DNA of 11,051 bases, from positions 1 through 11,051 of the forward strand of contig JANLFV010000022.1 of NCBI GenBank assembly GCA_024653345.1, given 5' to 3'. Shown piece by piece: positions 1,794-11,051 of the stretch. A model generated the notes under the pieces. The model saw nothing but the letters and a program-made list of their open reading frames with translations. It did not search any database and was not told the origin of the DNA. Numbering within the stretch: the first letter of the stretch is position 1; each line of letters starts with the position of its first letter. The stretch is from Candidatus Acetothermia bacterium (GTDB taxonomy: Bacteria > Bipolaricaulota > Bipolaricaulia > RBG-16-55-9 > JANLFV01). The position numbers and the translations under genes were made by a program.

Positions 1794-2681
1794 ATGAACA
1801 GACAAAGAATAGAATTAAGCTGGCTCGCATATAGTGTGCTGCTGTTGGGAGTTCTAGGGCTTGTGGGGCTAGGGGGTGGAGGTGGAGTGGCAACCTCCAC
1901 CCCCGGCCAACTGTGGGTTGATGATGACCCAGGCTGCGGGGACCACAGCCCCTGCTTCTCCTCAATCCAGCAGGCGGTAGATGCCGCAGCTACAGCCGCG
2001 ACCATCTGGGTCCGCCCAGGCCTCTATGAGGAGACAATCACCATTACCAAATGGGTCAATCTAGTAGGTGAAGTAGGTAGCGGACAGGTGGTCATCCGTT
2101 CCCCGGATCCCGAGCAGCCGGTGATCCAGGTCCTGCAGGTGCCACAGGCAACAGAGGTAGGCGAGTCAAGAGGCGTGATAACCGTTGGGCTCCTACCAGG
2201 AGGGCTCTTGAGGAACCTCACCATCATGGGCGGCCGAGTTGGAGTGCTTCTCCGGAGGACCGACTATCGAGTGCAGTTCAACCAGATCACCGGGAATCGA
2301 GACGCGGGCATCCTGATTGAGGGTGGGAGCCCCCTCGTTTGGGGGAATGAGATTTCATGGACGTCGGGGGTATGCGAGGCGCGGGAATACAGGGGCGTCG
2401 TCTGTGAAGGCGGGGATGGCATCCGCGTGACCGCGGTCGAAGATGATCTGGAAATCAGCGGAAATACAATCTCCCACGGCAATGGCTGGGGGATTAGAGT
2501 CCTGGGTTGGAAGGGAGTGCTAGACCCGCAGAGTGGGGCAGTCAAGGTCGAGCGAAATTCGATAACAGAACATGGGACTCTCCTTGAAGGAGGAGGGATT
2601 TCGGTCGAGGGGATAGCGGAAGCAGAGATAGATCATAATCATATTGAAGGAAATGGATGGGCATTGATGTTGTGGCAGTGA
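1794..2681 (+). CDS. Secreted parallel beta-helix protein 1, N-terminal part (frameshifted)
   Basis: The start at ATG 1794 is supported by GAGGGA at 1783-1788. Residues ~1-35 form a signal peptide (basic MNRQR, then a Leu/Val/Gly-rich core). The mature part begins with a short segment holding two Cys (DDDPGCGDHSPC), then FSSIQQAVDAAATAATIWVRPGLYEETITI, the usual entry strand of NosD/DUF1565-type right-handed beta-helices. Rungs with IxxNxI...GIxI spacing follow. Such proteins act outside the cytoplasm as surface carbohydrate-binding or carbohydrate-cleaving proteins or as structural proteins; no catalytic residues can be assigned here. This frame ends at 2681 with the unnatural residues ALMLWQ. 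The beta-helix continues in the -1 frame from about 2660, so 1794-3343 is one gene of about 516 residues broken by a missing base. Confidence 0.8.
   Translation: MNRQRIELSWLAYSVLLLGVLGLVGLGGGGGVATSTPGQLWVDDDPGCGDHSPCFSSIQQAVDAAATAATIWVRPGLYEETITITKWVNLVGEVGSGQVVIRSPDPEQPVIQVLQVPQATEVGESRGVITVGLLPGGLLRNLTIMGGRVGVLLRRTDYRVQFNQITGNRDAGILIEGGSPLVWGNEISWTSGVCEAREYRGVVCEGGDGIRVTAVEDDLEISGNTISHGNGWGIRVLGWKGVLDPQSGAVKVERNSITEHGTLLEGGGISVEGIAEAEIDHNHIEGNGWALMLWQ
1847..1876 (+). other. Potential G-quadruplex on the coding strand
   Basis: Four runs of at least three G (1847-1849, 1857-1859, 1865-1868, 1872-1876) are separated by loops of 7, 5 and 3 bases, which satisfies the usual G3-N1-7 rule. The last run is also the left arm of the 12-bp hairpin, so the two structures would compete. 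Confidence 0.45.
1872..1904 (+). repeat. Perfect 12-bp inverted repeat inside beta-helix gene 1
   Basis: The arms GGGGGTGGAGGT (1872-1883) and ACCTCCACCCCC (1893-1904) are exact reverse complements with a 9-base loop. They would form a very stable hairpin in the mRNA at the end of the signal-peptide coding region. No T-run follows, so it does not look like an intrinsic terminator. Confidence 0.75.
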
Positions 2682-3343
2682 CAGATATAGTGATCAAGCA
2701 CAATTATGTCTCCGAGGACGGGGGTCTTGGCATAGGTGTGCACAATAGCTTAAAATCTGAGGTGAGCTATAATCAACTATGGAACAATGGTTCAGGTATC
2801 GTCCTCGATTTCGTGGCGCAATCGAACGTCGCCCATAATGAGATCAAGGGGAACAATGGTGGTATTTCTATTCGAGGCTTGCGACTCGATAGAGGTGAAA
2901 AGCAGATCTCTCTTCAATACAATAAACTACAGAATAATGTGCAGTGGGGGATACGAATATTGGATATCCCAGCTGGAGGGAAGGCCGAGATCTATCGGAA
3001 TGAGATCCTCACCAGCGGTTGGGGAGTCTGGCTGCTCAATGCGGAAGCGATGACCACGATGGAACAGAACACCTTGGAAGGGAATGAGCACGGCGTCGTC
3101 GTGGACAGAAGCCGAGTGATGCTGAAGGAGAACCGTATCGTGAAGAACGAGGGCTGGGGCGTGGTGTTGAGCAAAGATACTCTTAGAATCCCAGGAGGAG
3201 GCACCCTGTGGTGTCTCAGCGGAGAGGTCGATTGGACCAAGTGGGCTGTGCGTGGGGCTGATAATGAGATCCACGGCAACGGCCAGGGCGATCTCTGCCC
3301 CGAGGATTACCCCTGGCCTCCGGGGTTTGTGAAGGGGCCTTGA
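2657..3343 (+). CDS. Secreted parallel beta-helix protein 1, C-terminal part (frameshifted)
   Basis: This is the continuation of the 1794 gene. Adding one G to the GGG at 2659-2661 restores the rung NGWGIDVVAVTDIVIKHNYV, which matches an earlier rung, NGWGIRV. The ATG at 2657 has no ribosome site and is unlikely to be used as an independent start. About eight further beta-helix rungs of roughly 22-25 residues follow, with Asn at the turns (HNEIKGNNGGISI, ENRIVKNEGWGVVL). The protein ends with GDLCPEDYPWPPGFVKGP directly before TGA, the tag also found on the next two paralogs. If the frameshift is real, the N-terminal product is a secreted fragment lacking the tag, and this half is untranslated or made without a signal peptide. 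It could also be a sequencing or assembly error. Confidence 0.75.
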   Translation: MGIDVVAVTDIVIKHNYVSEDGGLGIGVHNSLKSEVSYNQLWNNGSGIVLDFVAQSNVAHNEIKGNNGGISIRGLRLDRGEKQISLQYNKLQNNVQWGIRILDIPAGGKAEIYRNEILTSGWGVWLLNAEAMTTMEQNTLEGNEHGVVVDRSRVMLKENRIVKNEGWGVVLSKDTLRIPGGGTLWCLSGEVDWTKWAVRGADNEIHGNGQGDLCPEDYPWPPGFVKGP

Positions 3344-3387
3344 GCCTATTTCTTCTGGCACTCCATTGGCTCATGACAGAGGATAGA

Positions 3388-3416
3388 GGGGCCGAGGGCT
3401 TGAAATTACCGGCCCC
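3388..3416 (+). repeat. Intergenic hairpin before beta-helix gene 2
   Basis: GGGGCCG (3388-3394) and CGGCCCC (3410-3416) are exact inverted repeats with a 15-base loop. They lie between the beta-helix 1 stop and the strong Shine-Dalgarno of beta-helix 2. No T-run follows. It may stabilise or separate message segments. Nothing else is seen in the 96-base gap. Confidence 0.45.
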
Positions 3417-3439
3417 AAAGGCTAAGGAGGTGGCGAGAG

Positions 3440-4654
3440 ATGTTCATCTTCAGAAGGCGTTCCGAGTCTATTAGGCTAGGGTTGCTACTGCCTTTGGCAG
3501 TTGCAACCGGGGTAATGACCTCAGCAGTGTCCCGGGTGGCCTCGCTGCTCGTCTGCCCTCAGGGCTGCCCATTCTCCAGTATCCAAGCGGCGATAGATGC
3601 CGCCGCGCCCGGGGATACCATCCTCGTAGCCCCAGGGAGATACGATGAGGTGTTGATGATAAACAAGAGGTTGACACTCCAGGGAGCTGCACCGGACTTC
3701 GTGGAACGCATAAAGGAGCTCTGGAGCACGAACAATCCGCAGGAGATTATAGCACTTCGAGAGAGGGAGGAAGTAGCTATCTACGGGCCTGGATCCATCC
3801 CTGGGCCGGTAATCAGCGTCCAAGAGACTACTGTGACTATCAGTGGCTTCACTATTGGCAAGGTCTATGCCCATGCGGAAGAACTCTCCGATGACGACTA
3901 TGGAGTTCTTGTCCAGCCCGGAGCTCAAGCAATCATCGAGAACAGCATTCTTGTTGGGGGCATGGGGAGTATTTTAGTCAATTCGGCTATGATATCACTC
4001 TCTAATGCAATCGTCGCTAGTAATTCTTTAGGCATTGAGGTCCATGGGGCCTCTCAAGCTACCATTACAGACAGCTGGATAGAGAATATAGGTGCTGCTG
4101 CCCTCACCTTTGACGGGTTCAGTCAAGTCCTGCTCCTGAGGAGCAGGATCGCCAACAACTGGGTTTGGTGCATCATCGTGGGAGATTCGGCTCAGGTGCA
4201 GATTCAGGATAATGAGATCCTAGGGAATGGCATAGGTATAGAGATATATGGAGAGAAGGCCCAAGTTCAGATCCTGAATAATCAATTCTCTGGCAATATA
4301 GAGGGCGTCCGCGTGGAATATGGCCAGGCGATTATCCAGAGCAACCGATTTGAAGGGCAGAAGGAGAGAGGCATTTGGGTATCCTCTCAAGCCCGCTTGA
4401 TCGAAAATATTGTCTCTAAGAACGAGGGCGATGGGATCCGAATATCTTGCGATGCCCAAGTGGAGGTGGTCAGAAATGAGATCGTCGATAATGGGGGTTG
4501 CGGGATAGTTATATCTGGGCCCTCATGCAGTGGCCACCCCTTCCCCTTCGCAGGGAGTATAGTTGGGAGAGAGAACGAGGTTCATAACAACGCCAAGGGG
4601 GACCTCTGCCCCCCGGACTATCCCTGGCCTCCGGGGTTTGTGAAGGGGCCTTAA
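3440..4654 (+). CDS. Secreted parallel beta-helix protein 2 (intact)
   Basis: This is the one unbroken member of the three paralogs, 404 residues long. ATG 3440 follows a strong Shine-Dalgarno, AAGGAGGTG, at 3424-3432. A basic N-terminus (FRRRSESIR) and a hydrophobic core to about residue 34 make a signal peptide. The mature start is LLVCPQGCPFSSIQAAIDAAAPGDTILVAPGRY, a close parallel to paralog 1, with a CPQGC pair. Residues ~120-375 are right-handed beta-helix rungs (IQDNEILGNGIGIEI, ILNNQFSGNIEGVRV, VVRNEIVDNGGCGIVI). The C-terminus is NAKGDLCPPDYPWPPGFVKGP. No catalytic carboxylate cluster can be named, so enzymatic activity is unproven; polysaccharide binding or cleavage and a structural surface role both remain possible. 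Confidence 0.85.
   Translation: MFIFRRRSESIRLGLLLPLAVATGVMTSAVSRVASLLVCPQGCPFSSIQAAIDAAAPGDTILVAPGRYDEVLMINKRLTLQGAAPDFVERIKELWSTNNPQEIIALREREEVAIYGPGSIPGPVISVQETTVTISGFTIGKVYAHAEELSDDDYGVLVQPGAQAIIENSILVGGMGSILVNSAMISLSNAIVASNSLGIEVHGASQATITDSWIENIGAAALTFDGFSQVLLLRSRIANNWVWCIIVGDSAQVQIQDNEILGNGIGIEIYGEKAQVQILNNQFSGNIEGVRVEYGQAIIQSNRFEGQKERGIWVSSQARLIENIVSKNEGDGIRISCDAQVEVVRNEIVDNGGCGIVISGPSCSGHPFPFAGSIVGRENEVHNNAKGDLCPPDYPWPPGFVKGP
4128..4148 (+). repeat. 9-bp inverted repeat with 3-base loop inside beta-helix gene 2
   Basis: TCCTGCTCC (4128-4136) and GGAGCAGGA (4140-4148) pair perfectly around TGA. The repeat is within the coding sequence (VLLLRSR), with no T-run after it. It may simply reflect the Leu/Arg codons here. 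Confidence 0.5.
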
Positions 4655-4873
4655 GATGGTGAGCCTACGCGGCCTGGCGCAAGGGAGTGGGATCAGACAT
4701 CGTGCCAACACCAATGATCCGCCTGTCTTTAGGAATCCCCCGCCACTATCCTGCAACGAGAGCGGGGAGATTTGTGCTGTGGGTGTTGAGCCCTGAGCTT
4801 TGAACATACCAAGATTGGAGGAGCTATCCTAGAGGGCTGATCGTGGCGTTAGAGGGGCTTGAGGAGGTGTGCT

Positions 4874-5206
4874 ATGAGATGGCTCTTGCTAATAGGCCTC
4901 ATTGCGGGGATAGTCTGGGGTAGCGAGGCCGGGAGGCAGGTGCCAGTGATCGAGGTTAATTGCCCCGATCCTTCCGGCTGTTTAGGTCTATTGGGGGAAG
5001 CTATCGCTGCAGCCCCGGAAGGGGCGGTAATTCGGCTCAGTGAGCTAAGCAAGGGCATATACTATGAACATCCCCTGGTTATCGATAAGAGCTTAACGAT
5101 CCAGGGCACCACCTATCCCTGGAACCTTATTAATTATAGCCGTCGATCACGGATATTTCCTGACCGTCCGCTCCCCTGGTCACCCGATAACCGTCACCCT
5201 AGATAG
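4874..5206 (+). CDS. Secreted parallel beta-helix protein 3, N-terminal part (frameshifted)
   Basis: A TTG at 4859 is also in frame, but ATG 4874 is the better start: GAGGAGGTG at 4861-4869 gives good Shine-Dalgarno spacing, and the product then begins with a compact signal peptide, MRWLLLIGLIAGIVWGSEA. Next comes IEVNCPDPSGCLGLLGEAIAAAPEGAVIRL, equivalent to the Cys pair and beta-helix entry segment of the other two paralogs, then VIDKSLTIQGTTYP. From about base 5120 the frame loses beta-helix character (NYSRRSRIFPDRPL) and stops at 5206. Skipping one base at CCC-T 5117-5120 continues into GTLLIIAVDHGYFLTVRSPGH and the rest of the gene. Confidence 0.7.
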   Translation: MRWLLLIGLIAGIVWGSEAGRQVPVIEVNCPDPSGCLGLLGEAIAAAPEGAVIRLSELSKGIYYEHPLVIDKSLTIQGTTYPWNLINYSRRSRIFPDRPLPWSPDNRHPR

Positions 5207-5885
5207 TCTTGTCATTCGAAACAGTCTCGTAGACGTCGGGACGTGGTCCAAGGAGGGGACTGGGACGGCCATATTCCTGGAAGGGCCAGCGGAAGGGGTT
5301 CCGGAAGACCTGAGGCTAATTATCAGGGATAGCGGCATTGATGCTACCGGTTTCATCGTTAAGATGCGGGGGAAGACCCAGCTCATCATAGAAGGGAGCG
5401 AGCTTGTGTCAAAGAACTGGGGGTTCTGGGCAGAAGGAGGCGGTAAGCTGGTGCTGGATGGCAATGAAATCGTCATCGAACCGGACTACTTCCCATGTGA
5501 TAAGGTTGGATTGTACCTCAAAGATGTTGAGGCACACCTTCAGGGGAATATGATCATGCCATCGACAGTTGGGACCCCGAGGAAGCTGGGAATTGGCATA
5601 ATGGCACTTGGAGGGGAGTATCACCTTATAAAGAACAGGATCGAGGGCTTTTCGAGAGCAGTGGGACTAGCAATGAAGACAAACGCGGACTTTCAAGAGA
5701 ACTCTATAAGTGAGAACAGTATAGGCATACTGCTTTTTCTGCCTTCTTGTCTGGGGGCAGGCATGACCCCAGAGTTCAAATTCGAAGGGACGATCACCGG
5801 CGCTGGCAACCTGTTCCTATACAACGAGCAAGACCTCTGCCCTCCAGACTACCCCTGGCCGGAGGGGTTTGTGAAAGGGCCTTGA
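5119..5885 (+). CDS. Secreted parallel beta-helix protein 3, C-terminal part (frameshifted)
   Basis: This frame is open from about 5097 and coding-like from about 5119 (GTLLIIAVDHGYFLTVRSPGH, then LDSLVIRNSLVDVGTW). Its first conventional start is not reached until ATG 5364. Good coding character upstream of any start codon is the main evidence that it is the rest of the 4874 gene. The restored protein would be about 336 residues, shorter than its paralogs, with fewer rungs (LVLDGNEIVI, LIKNRIEGFSRAVGLAM, FQENSISENSIGILL). It ends in EQDLCPPDYPWPEGFVKGP, the shared C-terminal tag. A gene predictor would probably call only 5364-5885. It is either a pseudogene, a frameshift-regulated gene or a sequencing error. 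Confidence 0.7.
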
Positions 5886-6059: not shown

Positions 6060-6890
6060 ATGGGCTTCAATGAGGGGTTGCTTGTGGCAACGCGAGCCAG
6101 ACAGAGCCTCCTCTGCGTCGGGCTCGATAGCGACCTCGAGCGGCTCCCGCCGCACCTCCTCCGAGAATTCGGCGAGCGGGCGGTCTTAGAGTTCAACCGC
6201 TGGATCATCGAGGCCACAAAGGACCTGGTCTGCGCCTACAAGCTGAACCTCGCCTTCTATGAGCAGCTCGGGCCAACGGGGCTGGGGATGCTCGAGGAGA
6301 CCCTCGCCTCCATCCCCGAGGGGGTCCTCAAGATCGCTGACGCTAAGCGGGGGGACATTAGTAGCACCGCTAAAGCTTACGCCAAGGCCATCTTCGACTA
6401 CTACGGCTTCGACGCGGCCACGGTCAACCCCTACTTGGGGCTCGAGGCCCTCGAGCCCTTCTTGAGCTACAGCGATCGCGGGGCCTTCGTCTTATGCCGG
6501 ACTTCCAACCCCGGGGCGAGGGAGTTCCAAGACCTCGAGTGCGACGGGAGGCCGCTTTATCTTTGGGTCGCCGAGGCCGTGGCCCGGGCGAGCGAGCGCT
6601 TCGGGAACCTCGGCTTAGTCGTGGGGGCCACCTGGCCTGAGGAGCTAAGGAGGGTTCGCGAGCTCGTGGGGGATGGGCTCCCGATCCTGATCCCCGGGGT
6701 CGGAGCCCAGGCGGGCGACCTGGAGAGGGCCGTGAGATATGGGACGAACAGCCGAGGCGAACTCGCGATCATCAATGTCTCCCGCGCGGTGATCTTCGCC
6801 TCTGCCCGAGAGGACTTCGCTCAGGCCGCCCGGGCCGCAGCCCAGAGGTTGAGGGACGAGATCGAGCGCTCTCGCCCGCGGCGGAGTTGA
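6060..6890 (+). CDS. pyrF: Orotidine 5'-phosphate decarboxylase, type 2
   Basis: PyrF catalyses the last step of UMP synthesis, OMP to UMP plus CO2, in the cytoplasm. At 276 residues it fits the longer type-2 (PyrF family 2) branch. Visible family motifs are LLCVGLDSD near residues 17-25, the active-site D94-x-K96-x-x-D99 in DAKRGDISSTAKAYAKAIF, NPYLGLEALEPFL, CRTSNPGAREFQDL, GATWPEEL, the phosphate-binding IPGVGAQAGDLERAVRYG, and INVSRAVIF. ATG 6060 has only a weak purine stretch (GCGGGG) upstream, but it precedes the family's usual N-terminal helix. Base composition is much more GC-rich than in the beta-helix genes. It is followed after 37 bases by a gene with its own promoter-like sequence, so it may be transcribed separately. 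Confidence 0.95.
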   Translation: MGFNEGLLVATRARQSLLCVGLDSDLERLPPHLLREFGERAVLEFNRWIIEATKDLVCAYKLNLAFYEQLGPTGLGMLEETLASIPEGVLKIADAKRGDISSTAKAYAKAIFDYYGFDAATVNPYLGLEALEPFLSYSDRGAFVLCRTSNPGAREFQDLECDGRPLYLWVAEAVARASERFGNLGLVVGATWPEELRRVRELVGDGLPILIPGVGAQAGDLERAVRYGTNSRGELAIINVSRAVIFASAREDFAQAARAAAQRLRDEIERSRPRRS

Positions 6891-6892
6891 GG

Positions 6893-6921
6893 TTGACAAG
6901 GCCAGAGGGATCTGCTATCAA
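6893..6921 (+). promoter_or_regulatory. Likely promoter of the kinase-qng1-tgt operon
   Basis: A consensus -35 TTGACA (6893-6898) is followed after exactly 17 bases by TATCAA (6916-6921), preceded by an extended -10 TG (6913-6914). It begins just after the pyrF stop. The predicted start of transcription (about 6927-6929) coincides with ATG 6928, which has no properly spaced Shine-Dalgarno, so a leaderless mRNA is suggested. Confidence 0.5.
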
Positions 6922-6927
6922 ATATCT

Positions 6928-8241
6928 ATGTTGGCCGAGCAGATCCTCGCCTATCTCCCCATGCAAAGACCTGTGGCCATCCTCTGTTGCGGCCTCCCCG
7001 GCTCGGGGAAGACCTGGCTCGCGGGCCTGCTCCGGCTCCAGCTCGCCCGTGAGCCCAGCTCAGGCGGCGTCGAGCACCTCCAGACCGACCGGGTCCGGCG
7101 GGAGCTCTTCCCCGTGCGACGCTACACCCCCGAGGAGACTGAGGCCGTCTACCGCGAGCTCCTCCGGCAGGCCGAGGCGGCCCTAAAGGAAGGGAAGAGC
7201 ACGATCTTGGATGGGACCTTCTTGATGAGCCGCTGGCGGGCCGAGGCCTACTCCCTCTTCCGGGAGCTGCGAGCTCCCTTTATCACCGTTTTGGCCGTGG
7301 CCGATGAGCGGGTGGTCCGGGCCAGGTTCGCCCGGAAGCCGCTCTTCCCCGACCCCAGCGACTTCTCCGAGGCCAGCTTCCGGGTCTACCTCGAGATGCG
7401 GGAGAAGCTCTCGGCTGATCCTGACTACTCTCTCCCGAACGCCGACAGGGATGTGCGCGTCCTGGTGGTGGATACCGAGCGCGGGGAGGTCTATGAGCCT
7501 TACCCCCAGCCGCGGCTTGAGGGGTTCTACGAGACTCTCGAGGGCCTGGAGGCCGTGATCTTCGACATGGACGGGGTGATCGTGCGGAGCGAGGAGGCCT
7601 GGCTCCGGAGCGAGCGAGAGTTCCTCGAGAGCCAGGGGATCTTCATCATCTTCGAGGAGTTCCAGCGCCGGCATGCCCCCTACCTTGCGGGCCGGAACCA
7701 GACCGAGGCCGCCCGGTTTTACAAGGAGACCTTCGGGCTGAGCCTCCCGGTCGAGGAGATCCGCCGCCAGCGGATGGCGATCGTCCGGCGCTACTTCCGC
7801 GAGGTCGAGCCGGTCCTCGGGGCCAAGGAGTTGATCGCCACGCTCTTCGAGAACGGCCTGAAGCTCGGGCTGGCCTCGGCCGCACCGCTCGAGCTGATCG
7901 AGCTCGTGCTGCGGGACCACGGCCTCGAGCGCTACTTCCAAGCGGTGGTCTCCGGGGACCAGCTCCACGAGGGGAAGCCGAACCCGATGATCTACCTCCT
8001 CGCGGCCCGCGAGCTGGGGGTCGAGCCCGAAAGGTGCCTGGTCTTCGAGGACGCCCCGAACGGGGTGAGGGCGGCCAAGGCCGCGGGGATGAGCTGCGCT
8101 TATCTCATCAACCCCGCCGTCCGCTGGGCCGGTGAGCTGATCCCCGACTTCGTCCTGGAGGGGTTCGATCAGCTCGACCTCGCCCGGCTGGGGCAGGCCC
8201 GGGCCTCAAGGAGGCGGAGCCTCACCAAAGCCAACGAGTGA
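6928..8241 (+). CDS. Fused P-loop kinase (AAA_33 type) and HAD phosphatase
   Basis: This is a two-domain cytoplasmic protein of 437 residues. Residues ~14-190 form a P-loop kinase of the AAA_33/polynucleotide-kinase-like group, with Walker A GLPGSGKT (22-29), an acceptor-side segment TDRVRRELF, and DGTFLMSRWRAEAY with a lid region rich in Arg. Residues ~205-425 form a HAD hydrolase of the beta-phosphoglucomutase-like subfamily: motif I FDMDGVIVRSE with D213 and D215, motif II LGLASAAP, motif III K350 in EGKPNP, motif IV FEDAPNG (E374, D375). A helical cap lies between motifs I and II. All key residues of both domains are present. There is no Shine-Dalgarno before ATG 6928, and a promoter-like sequence suggests a leaderless transcript; ATG 6961 is an alternative start. 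Qng1 and tgt follow directly, so a role in queuosine salvage is inferred. A sugar or general nucleotide metabolite role is the alternative. Confidence 0.85.
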   Translation: MLAEQILAYLPMQRPVAILCCGLPGSGKTWLAGLLRLQLAREPSSGGVEHLQTDRVRRELFPVRRYTPEETEAVYRELLRQAEAALKEGKSTILDGTFLMSRWRAEAYSLFRELRAPFITVLAVADERVVRARFARKPLFPDPSDFSEASFRVYLEMREKLSADPDYSLPNADRDVRVLVVDTERGEVYEPYPQPRLEGFYETLEGLEAVIFDMDGVIVRSEEAWLRSEREFLESQGIFIIFEEFQRRHAPYLAGRNQTEAARFYKETFGLSLPVEEIRRQRMAIVRRYFREVEPVLGAKELIATLFENGLKLGLASAAPLELIELVLRDHGLERYFQAVVSGDQLHEGKPNPMIYLLAARELGVEPERCLVFEDAPNGVRAAKAAGMSCAYLINPAVRWAGELIPDFVLEGFDQLDLARLGQARASRRRSLTKANE

Positions 8242-8245
8242 AGGC

Positions 8246-9220
8246 ATGGAAGAGGTCCGGGAGTCGGCCCGCTGGGTCGCGGAGCATAGTGAGCTAGTCC
8301 GGCTCGATCACGCTGCACTCGCAGGGTTCGCCCGGGAGCTTGCGGCCCGCCTGGCCGCGGGCGAGTTGAAGATTCCTCGATGGAACTACCGTTATCACTT
8401 CCATGACGGGGGTGAGCGGACGGTCGCCTACCTCTTGGTCCTGGACAGCCTCAACTTCTGCTTCTGGGCCCCCGAAGGGAAGAGGAAGTGGAAGGTCGAC
8501 TACGCCGGGGAGGCCCTCTCCGGCTACTTTGCTCTGGCCGGGGCCCTCAAGCGGGCCTTCGAGGCCGGGCTCCCGCTCGACGATGCCCGCTATCTTGCCC
8601 GGCTCTCGACGCACGAGCTGAAGAAACTCCTCGCTGGCCGGGGCGAGCTCCAGCTCCTCGACCGCCGCGCTGGGATCCTCAACGAGCTCGGACGGGCCTT
8701 GCTCGAGCGGCATGAAGGGCGCGCCTCGCGGCTGGTCGAGGCGGCCGGCGGGAAGGCAGTCGAGCTCGTCCGGCTGGTGGTGAGGGAGCTCCCCTCCTTC
8801 CGCGATGAGGCGGAATACAAGAAGCGAACGATTCGCTTCTACAAGCGGGCCCAGATCCTGGCCGCCGACCTCTGGCTGGCCTTCGCCGGGAAGAGCTGGG
8901 GCCGCTTCGAGGATATCGGCCAGCTCACGGCCTTCGCGGACTACAAGCTCCCGCAGGTCCTCCGCCAGCTCGGTGTCCTGCGGTATAGTCCAGAATTGGC
9001 GGAGAGGATCGACCGGCTCGAGCCGCTCGAGGCCGGCTCACCCGAGGAGGTCGAGATCAGGGCCAACACCATCTGGGCGGTCGAGCTCCTCCGGGAGGAG
9101 CTGGCCCGCCAGGGGCGCGACCTGATGGCGATCGAGCTCGACTGGCTCCTCTGGGGGATGGGCCAGCGAGAAAAGTTCAAGCAGCGGCCGCATCACCGGA
9201 CGGTCACGATCTTCTACTGA
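8246..9220 (+). CDS. qng1: Queuosine 5'-phosphate N-glycosidase (DUF2419/Qng1 family)
   Basis: This 324-residue protein is of the DUF2419 (queuosine salvage, C9orf64/Qng1) family, which is related in fold to DNA glycosylases. Characterised members hydrolyse queuosine 5'-monophosphate to free queuine. Recognisable family segments are IPRWNYRYHFHDGG, LDSLNFCFW (66-74), YKKRTIRFYKRAQILAADLW, and FADYKLPQVLRQLGVL, where D232 is a probable active-site residue; VEIRANTIWAVELL and IELDWLLWGMG near the C-terminus also fit. ATG 8246 lies 4 bases after the kinase-phosphatase stop, and its TGA overlaps the tgt ATG by one base (TGATG). This implies one operon and translational coupling to tgt. The product, queuine, would be inserted into tRNA by the adjacent Tgt. 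Confidence 0.9.
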   Translation: MEEVRESARWVAEHSELVRLDHAALAGFARELAARLAAGELKIPRWNYRYHFHDGGERTVAYLLVLDSLNFCFWAPEGKRKWKVDYAGEALSGYFALAGALKRAFEAGLPLDDARYLARLSTHELKKLLAGRGELQLLDRRAGILNELGRALLERHEGRASRLVEAAGGKAVELVRLVVRELPSFRDEAEYKKRTIRFYKRAQILAADLWLAFAGKSWGRFEDIGQLTAFADYKLPQVLRQLGVLRYSPELAERIDRLEPLEAGSPEEVEIRANTIWAVELLREELARQGRDLMAIELDWLLWGMGQREKFKQRPHHRTVTIFY

Positions 9221-10428
9221 TGTTCGAGTTCGAGATTGCGGCCAGGGATGGCGGGGCGAGGGCGGGGCGGCTCATCACGCCCCACGGGGCGATCGAGACG
9301 CCCTCGTTCGTGGCCGTAGGGACCCAGGGGACGGTCAAGGCCGTCTCGCCTGAGGAGCTCCGCGCGATCGGGGTCCAGGTGATCATCGCTAACACCTATC
9401 ACCTCCACCTCCAGCCGGGAGAAGACCTCATAGAGAAGCTTGGGGGCCTCCACCGGTTCATGAACTGGAACGGGCCGCTGATGACCGACTCCGGGGGGTT
9501 CCAGGTCTTCTCCCTCGGGGCGGGGAGGGAGCATGGGGTGGGGAAGATCGCCCCGATCTTCCCCGAAGAGGAGGCGCGCCTCCGGGATCGGGGCGGCCAC
9601 TTCAGGGCCGCCGACGGCGGGAAGCCCTTGGTCAAGGTCGATGAGGACGGCGTGGAGTTCATCTCCCACCTCGACGGCTCGCGCCACCGCTTCACCCCCG
9701 AGAAGGTCATCCAAATCGAGCGGAAGCTCGGGGCCGACATCATCCTCGTCCTGGACGAGTGCACCTCCCCGCTCCACGACTACGCCTACACCAAGGAGGC
9801 GCTGGAGCGGACCCACCGCTGGGCTCTCCGGGCCCTCCGGGAGTTCGAGCGGGCGGACGACGGGAGGCAGGCACTGTTCGGGATCGTCCAAGGCGGGGCC
9901 TACCGCGACTTAAGGGAGGCGAGCGCGCGGTTCATCTCCTCGCTGGACTTCCACGGCTTCGCCATCGGCGGCTCGTTGGGGAAGTCGAAGCAGGAGATGC
10001 TCCAGGTCCTGGAGTGGACGGTCCCCCTCCTCCCGGAGGGGAGGCCCCGCCATCTCTTGGGGATCGGCGAGATCGCGGACATCTTCGCCGCGGTCCAGCG
10101 AGGGATAGACATGTTCGACTGCGTCGCCCCCACGCGGATGGCCCGGAACGGGGCGCTCTTCTCGAGGGAAGCTGAAGCCTTCCGGCTCCACATCCGGAAT
10201 GCCCGCTACCGCGACGATCCCCGCCCGGTCGAGGCGGGCTGCGGGTGCTACACCTGCCGGAACTACTCTCGGGCCTATCTCAGGCACCTCTTTGAGGCCA
10301 AGGAACTCCTGGCGATGCGGCTGGCCACGATCCACAACCTCTATTTCCTGGAGGAGCTGATGCGCCAGGTCCGGGCGGCGATCCGGGAGGGCCACCTGGC
10401 CGAGCTCAAGAGGGAGTGGCTTCCCTAG
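9220..10428 (+). CDS. tgt: tRNA-guanine transglycosylase (probably queuine-using)
   Basis: Tgt exchanges G34 of GUN-anticodon tRNAs for a 7-deazaguanine base. This 402-residue protein shows the general-acid motif DSGGFQVFSL (D90), DECTSP (D179, C181), GIVQGG (Q224), FAIGGSLG (250-254), the nucleophile region DMFDCVAPTR (D300) and a zinc site CxCxxC (C341, C343, C346) with H372. Classical preQ1-type bacterial enzymes have LAVG after the GG pair; here the residue matching Val233 of the Zymomonas enzyme is Gly254, as in queuine-using eukaryotic enzymes. About 35 extra residues lie between D90 and D179, around 100-140. The start codon overlaps the Qng1 stop. Queuine salvage context and the widened pocket agree, but preQ1 use cannot be excluded. 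Confidence 0.95.
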   Translation: MFEFEIAARDGGARAGRLITPHGAIETPSFVAVGTQGTVKAVSPEELRAIGVQVIIANTYHLHLQPGEDLIEKLGGLHRFMNWNGPLMTDSGGFQVFSLGAGREHGVGKIAPIFPEEEARLRDRGGHFRAADGGKPLVKVDEDGVEFISHLDGSRHRFTPEKVIQIERKLGADIILVLDECTSPLHDYAYTKEALERTHRWALRALREFERADDGRQALFGIVQGGAYRDLREASARFISSLDFHGFAIGGSLGKSKQEMLQVLEWTVPLLPEGRPRHLLGIGEIADIFAAVQRGIDMFDCVAPTRMARNGALFSREAEAFRLHIRNARYRDDPRPVEAGCGCYTCRNYSRAYLRHLFEAKELLAMRLATIHNLYFLEELMRQVRAAIREGHLAELKREWLP

Positions 10429-10531: not shown

Positions 10532-11051
10532 ATGCCTCCGGCTTGGGAGGCGAGGAAGCTGGCGAAGCAGGGGGAGCTGACGCGGAGGGAGTTCCTCAAG
10601 GGTGCGGGCGCCGCCGCATTAGGCCTAGCTCTGTCAGACATACTGCCAAGAAAGGCTTTAAGCCAGGCTGCGGGGTGCCCGCCGTATCGAGGCATTGCAC
10701 CGGTGGATTTTGATTACACATACGACACTTATGCCCAGATGAGACCCCATCATGAAAGGTGGCTCGAGGAGATAAAGGCAGTGGGTGCGGATAGCGTGGA
10801 GATCATGATTCCCATTAAGAGAGGTCCTGACTATCAAGTAGGATATAATCATTATGGCACACCGCAATGGCTACCGATGGACCGCGACCAAGGAACTGCT
10901 CTGAATATGAATATAAAGGATTTTGTAAGGCGAGCCCAGAGCAAGGGTTTCAAGGTGATACTTGATATTCCGAGCATGTGCCCATCTGAAGAGCCTCGTC
11001 CCCAGCCCTTCGACCTCGACCTGTTCTATTCCAACCTCGAAACGATGGCGT
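10532..11051 (+). CDS. Tat-exported protein, possible TIM-barrel hydrolase (3' cut by window)
   Basis: The frame is open from ATG 10532 to the window edge, 173 codons. The N-terminus has a twin-arginine signal, LTRREFLKGAGAAALGLAL, with R18-R19, followed by a region ending ALSQAAGC. Cleavage after SQA, or lipidation at C49 (a weak AAGC lipobox), is possible. The mature part contains HHERWLEEIKAVGADSVEIMIP and FVRRAQSKGFKVILDIPSMCP, which resemble the helix-strand pairs of a TIM barrel as in glycoside hydrolases. The catalytic residues would lie beyond the window, so the family is not named. A purine stretch (GAAAGGG 10523-10529) lies just before the start. The signal region is GC-rich while the mature region has clearly lower GC. 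Confidence 0.7.
   Translation, partial: MPPAWEARKLAKQGELTRREFLKGAGAAALGLALSDILPRKALSQAAGCPPYRGIAPVDFDYTYDTYAQMRPHHERWLEEIKAVGADSVEIMIPIKRGPDYQVGYNHYGTPQWLPMDRDQGTALNMNIKDFVRRAQSKGFKVILDIPSMCPSEEPRPQPFDLDLFYSNLETMA

Follow-up and report, generated by a model that had tools for sequence, protein, structure and literature searches.

A kinase-phosphatase fusion gene lies directly ahead of two queuosine-salvage genes on a contig of a Candidatus Acetothermia bacterium, and the question raised by this locus is whether the fusion itself takes part in the salvage of queuosine (Q). The window analysed is the entire 11-kb contig (C14; JANLFV010000022.1, 11,051 nucleotides) from a genome of 1.71 Mb that is 92% complete (GCA_024653345.1). 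The three genes, all on the forward strand, are the fusion (6928-8241; 437 amino acids, delimited by open reading frame call and Pfam domains), qng1, which encodes a queuosine-5′-phosphate glycosidase of the DUF2419/Q_salvage family (8246-9220; 324 amino acids), and tgt, which encodes tRNA-guanine transglycosylase (9220-10428; 402 amino acids). An initial annotation of the sequence had taken the fusion for the first enzyme of a complete and self-contained route from scavenged Q to modified tRNA. The three open reading frames that it listed, together with their spacing, were reproduced exactly by the open reading frame calls: the fusion and qng1 are 4 bp apart, and qng1 and tgt share 1 base (TGATG). 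On balance, the locus probably combines a qng1-tgt salvage pair with a fusion that serves as a general metabolite kinase and phosphatase not specific to Q.

Qng1 and Tgt as a candidate queuine-salvage pair

The qng1 product belongs to Q_salvage (PF10343, 315 bits against a cut-off of 25) and matches at full length the Sphaerobacter thermophilus Qng1 of PDB entries 7uk3 and 7u07 (E 3e-97), with the same invariant core kept in the alignment, including K200 and D232. PMC11592518 cites the Sphaerobacter enzyme as freeing queuine from queuosine-5′-phosphate, which is the main substrate of Qng1 (PMC11130926, PMC11592518). By analogy it would be the substrate here as well. The operon-like array with a kinase-HAD fusion sets the window qng1 apart from its Sphaerobacter counterpart. 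Tgt is likewise a family member (PF01702, 484 bits; TIGR00430, 505 bits against an equivalog cut-off of 307). Scores of this size, like those of the two fusion domains described below, are far above what chance would give.

The two genes tend to occur together. Among 100 relatives from the phylum, 79 matched Qng1 and 76 matched Tgt; 70 of them carry both genes and 15 neither, while 9 have Qng1 alone and 6 have Tgt alone (odds ratio 19, p 1.5e-7, shared ancestry ignored); several of the genomes counted as Qng1-only or Tgt-only have the locus ending at a contig edge. Moreover, tgt comes after qng1, directly or within ~900 bp, at 24 of 30 relative loci, and is downstream of qng1 at 48 of 80 loci from Bipolaricaulota, Desulfobacterota and Chloroflexota.

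Genes for making Q were not seen alongside them. Neither QueA nor QueH was found in the genome by searches that did not extend to QueG, QueC returned weak partial matches only, and QueA is present in just 1 of 21 near genomes. De novo Q synthesis, the presence of which would have spoken against the initial annotation, is thus ruled out as far as these QueA, QueH and QueC searches reach. Backed by adjacency, co-occurrence and the failure to find QueA and QueH, the pairing of qng1 and tgt for queuine or queuosine salvage stands, and it looks like a module of known kind. The label 'complete' fared less well: the classical Q-precursor transporters QPTR (PF02592) and QrtT (PF12822), the two transporter families searched for, were not found in the genome, so neither a complete, self-contained route nor its expected co-occurrence with a transporter is borne out. 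The QueK-QueL route likewise releases or reuses queuine for Tgt, but its enzymes are unrelated to those here.

The substrate-pocket loop of Tgt, IGGSLGKSK (9964-9990), is one residue shorter than the preQ1-type GGLAVGE, and the other Qng1-linked Tgts read carry a pocket of GG[SAT][LV]G type, with GGLAVG in none. Compared with GG[LS][AS]G, the published pocket consensus of queuine-type bacterial TGT (bTGT; PMC11570991), the GGSLG of the window has the same short length and no valine, but has L in fourth place; being near but not equal to the consensus, the motif is suggestive of a queuine-type enzyme, not proof of one. The Chlamydia-type bTGT of tgt-only bacteria (PMC11570991) resembles the present case in its short loop without the preQ1-type valine and in the lack of QueA, whereas the window Tgt differs in having GGSLG rather than GG[LS][AS]G and in an insert of ~35 residues before the catalytic half. 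This insert (GREHGVGKI..., 9520-9630) is absent in the Zymomonas Tgt, and an HGVGKI-like insert is present in some further Qng1-linked Tgts.

Several observations on these genes were made in other genomes. The N-terminal extensions of Tgt at four loci (L140, L153, L156 and L160) were rejected as domains, for their sequence looks like an antisense reading of the region upstream. The sole QueA found in the order is that of genome G013 (entry G013:C24:25207-26193, L062), which also has two Qng1 copies, with tgt beside one, hinting that Q synthesis and salvage are mixed there. Neither Qng1 nor Tgt was matched in any of the 11 genomes of families f3 (G003, G006, G008, G010 and G012) and f8 (G023, G026, G029, G032, G035 and G038), which suggests that the queuosine pathway was lost jointly. 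In family f4 (L069, L071, L073, L076 and L077), a protein of ~180 amino acids (M(T/S)DKIEP...) that matches no Pfam family is encoded next to qng1, in divergent orientation, in most of the genomes read.

Gene order and a predicted promoter

Directly upstream of the fusion, on the same strand and 37 bp before it, is pyrF for orotidine-5′-phosphate decarboxylase (6060-6890; TIGR02127, 248 bits). Between the two genes lies a promoter-like element, TTGACA-N17-TATCAA (6893-6921, forward strand), in which TTGACA begins at 6893 and is followed by a 17-nt spacer and TATCAA (6916-6921), the element stopping 6 bp short of the fusion ATG (6928). A consensus scanner passed over it on account of the final A in its second hexamer. 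In the sister species (G001), the two hexamers and the sequence between the second one and the ATG are identical to the window, the fusion is 89% identical, and the order pyrF-fusion-qng1-tgt is repeated, with a contig break inside qng1 and tgt on the other piece. The single promoter that had been postulated before the fusion is therefore matched by a predicted and conserved element. Judged by its sequence, this element is a putative promoter, a transcript from which would be nearly leaderless; transcription of pyrF might also run through into the fusion. As regards an upstream riboswitch, no Rfam match was found anywhere in the window.

Domains and modelled folds of the fusion

The N-terminal half is a P-loop kinase domain of the AAA_33 family (6979-7404, forward strand; residues 18-159, 79 bits against a cut-off of 27), with the Walker A motif GLPGSGKT, a DxxR motif (D54, R57) and an LDGTF motif. 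C21-K28, D54, R57 and D95 are invariant when the domain is aligned with polynucleotide-kinase-like proteins of phages, and the arginine of DxxR is missing from other AAA_33 relatives. The motif is compatible with an acceptor that is a phosphorylated nucleoside, yet it cannot point to queuosine. A single-sequence search with the kinase half gave APS kinase at no better than E 0.004. When the two halves were modelled separately, the best folds for the kinase were tied: T4 polynucleotide kinase (T4 Pnkp; Z 12.7), gluconate-kinase-like (12.4), APS kinase (12.2) and seryl-tRNA(Sec) kinase (11.9). Because this model is middling (predicted local distance difference test, pLDDT, 73; weak past residue 120) and rests on a phage-rich alignment that biases it to polynucleotide kinase, the nearest fold was not used for naming a substrate. 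Neither the sequence nor the modelled fold of the kinase half is distinctive enough for that.

The C-terminal half is a HAD subfamily IA phosphatase domain of the C1-cap class (7546-8100, forward strand; HAD/Hydrolase at residues 208-387, 103 bits), in which the DxD, Lys and acidic motifs are intact and the D, D, K and E/D columns invariant. Its model is good (pLDDT 86), and the folds nearest to it are YniC and CbbY (Z 24-25 over ~215 residues) and beta-phosphoglucomutase types; polynucleotide 3′-phosphatases are off this list of best matches, which does not prove the HAD half to be of another type. Pseudouridine-5′-phosphatase and AlnB, both of which act on ribosyl 5′-phosphates, are in the same match list. 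The listed relatives act on small phosphometabolites as phosphatases or mutases; none of these relatives is known as a 3′-nucleotidase, and C1-capped HAD-IA enzymes in general are mainly sugar-phosphate or 5′-phosphate phosphatases. Identity to the best of the subfamily IA proteins YniC/HxpB, CbbY and TM_1254 is ~30%; in contrast to these, the HAD half is attached to a kinase, and it scores under the HxpB equivalog cut-off (NF008087; 117 bits versus 191). T4 Pnkp has the same domain order as the fusion (an N-terminal P-loop kinase, then HAD), with a kinase fold among the best matches, but the HAD of the fusion is a C1-capped member of subfamily IA nearest to YniC/CbbY.

Distribution of the fusion

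Full-length relatives of the fusion were found, among the 100 genomes of the phylum, only in this genus (two species). HAD-half or weak matches, but no full-length fusion, were returned by seven Qng1-bearing genomes of other groups, by 400 genomes from the same phylum as a Sphaerobacter metagenome-assembled genome and by plasmid and phage collections; one plasmid match (H1, 77% coverage) turned out to be a lone HAD gene. Nor was a kinase or HAD gene seen repeatedly beside qng1: tblastn with each half gave nothing within flanks of up to 6 kb around 80 Qng1 loci, and the 25 commonest families in a Pfam scan of 80 same-strand qng1 neighbours include neither a HAD family nor AAA_33. The only HAD seen beside Qng1 is an unrelated one (PF12710), whose gene immediately precedes qng1 in a genome of the deltaproteobacteria (L119:5303-5953).

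The relatives of the separate halves lie elsewhere. The closest to the HAD half (38-43% identity, with the cap stretch ARFYKE..L in common) come from family f8, where they are unfused and have a sigma-factor gene and an mnmA-like gene as neighbours; neither Qng1 nor Tgt was matched in any of the six f8 genomes. The nearest relatives of the kinase (~30-34% identity over the domain) adjoin recA or ABC-transporter genes. Since these relatives lie far from Qng1 where it is present, and otherwise in genomes that gave no match to it, neither half is tied to queuosine outside the genus, and recurrence of the fusion with qng1 or tgt in independent lineages was not seen, one genus only being represented. 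The expectation of the initial annotation that the fusion would keep close to qng1 and tgt thus holds for the full-length gene, which is known only adjoining qng1, and fails for its halves.

Role of the fusion

From gene content, order and conservation, the pocket motif and the searches for QueA, QueH, QPTR and QrtT, we infer the activities, the cotranscription and the substrate of the fusion as follows. Qng1 would split queuosine-5′-phosphate into queuine and ribose 5-phosphate, and Tgt, with its altered pocket, would put queuine directly into tRNA, both being activities of their families; direct use of queuine is assumed because, with no QueA found, the cell seems to lack the means of turning preQ1 into Q. 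The fusion is probably a recent, genus-specific gene that came to lie upstream of qng1 in the ancestor of the genus, its halves stemming from metabolite kinases of general purpose and from phosphatases like YniC and CbbY; its spacing and promoter-like element suggest that it is cotranscribed with qng1-tgt. Its substrate is most likely a small phosphometabolite not specific to Q. As for the fusion being the first enzyme of a Q route, support ends at adjacency in one genus, and the HAD relatives live without Qng1 and Tgt.

A less probable alternative is that the fusion feeds Qng1 with queuosine-5′-phosphate. In one variant, HAD would strip a 3′-phosphate and the kinase would then phosphorylate the 5′-OH; in the other, as in T4 polynucleotide kinase, the kinase would act first on the 3′-phosphate form and HAD would then trim the bisphosphate. 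Q and queuosine-3′-phosphate do occur among tRNA breakdown products (PMC11130926, PMC11592518), every HAD motif is intact, and DxxR is kept as in phage polynucleotide-kinase-like proteins. T4 polynucleotide kinase is among the tied folds, but so are APS, gluconate-kinase-like and seryl-tRNA(Sec) kinases, in a phage-biased model. The habitual substrates of C1-capped HAD-IA enzymes speak against a 3′-phosphatase, such a kinase or HAD was found near Qng1 nowhere else searched, the nearest HAD relatives are in genomes without a detectable Q pathway, and many Qng1-Tgt bacteria do without the fusion.

Four points nevertheless weigh against a fusion not specific to Q. The gene is packed tightly on qng1 behind a promoter-like element conserved in two species; a kinase making queuosine-5′-phosphate would suit the known preference of Qng1; the f8 genomes are 70-86% complete, though all six are without both Qng1 and Tgt; and recruitment of old domains in one lineage would give the same comparative pattern as no role. 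Because the tight packing, the conserved element and the need for a 5′-phosphate fit together, the supply of queuosine-5′-phosphate retains a minor share of the probability. On the boldest reading, which has the same minor probability, the fusion would be the first queuosine kinase known, carrying a nucleotide phosphatase of its own, and would convert scavenged queuosine or queuosine 3′-phosphate into queuosine-5′-phosphate, the form preferred by Qng1.

Still more doubtful is a function of the fusion with pyrF or in general nucleotide or ribose metabolism, such as ribose 5-phosphate recycling or the clean-up of damaged nucleotides, with qng1-tgt merely on its transcript. The pyrF-fusion order is kept in both species and the HAD matches include the two enzymes of ribosyl 5′-phosphates, but the promoter-like element stands between pyrF and the fusion, and the link to pyrF is seen in two species only. 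Finally, that Tgt still favours preQ1 or serves another base, in which case the module would not be one of queuine salvage, is very improbable: GGSLG departs from the consensus at one letter (L, fourth place), but the valine that is said to exclude queuine is absent from the loop, QueA was not detected in the genome and the partner is the queuine-releasing Qng1.

Salvage by Qng1 and Tgt is already known, whereas a kinase-HAD gene beside qng1-tgt is undescribed in the literature searched, and is new to that extent, an earlier mention being possible. The same literature holds no 'queuosine kinase' and no description of the step from free queuosine to the 5′-phosphate for Qng1, for which the fusion adjoining qng1 is a concrete candidate. 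If the fusion were a queuosine kinase, three consecutive genes would take RNA debris to Q-modified tRNA; should the candidate fail, the phylum-wide qng1-tgt pairing with the GGSLG-type loop would still offer a marker for queuine-type Tgt.

Flanking regions of the window

Upstream of pyrF, the block at 1794-5885 encodes at least three NosD/right-handed beta-helix proteins, several with a common C-terminal stretch (LCPPDYPWPPGFVKGP or close). The GC content at third codon positions is 0.52-0.59 in two genes of this block and 0.84-0.94 on the qng1 side, and the block is possibly a local duplication or foreign DNA. Downstream of tgt, the window holds the start of a TAT-signal secreted protein (10532-11051), truncated by the contig end.

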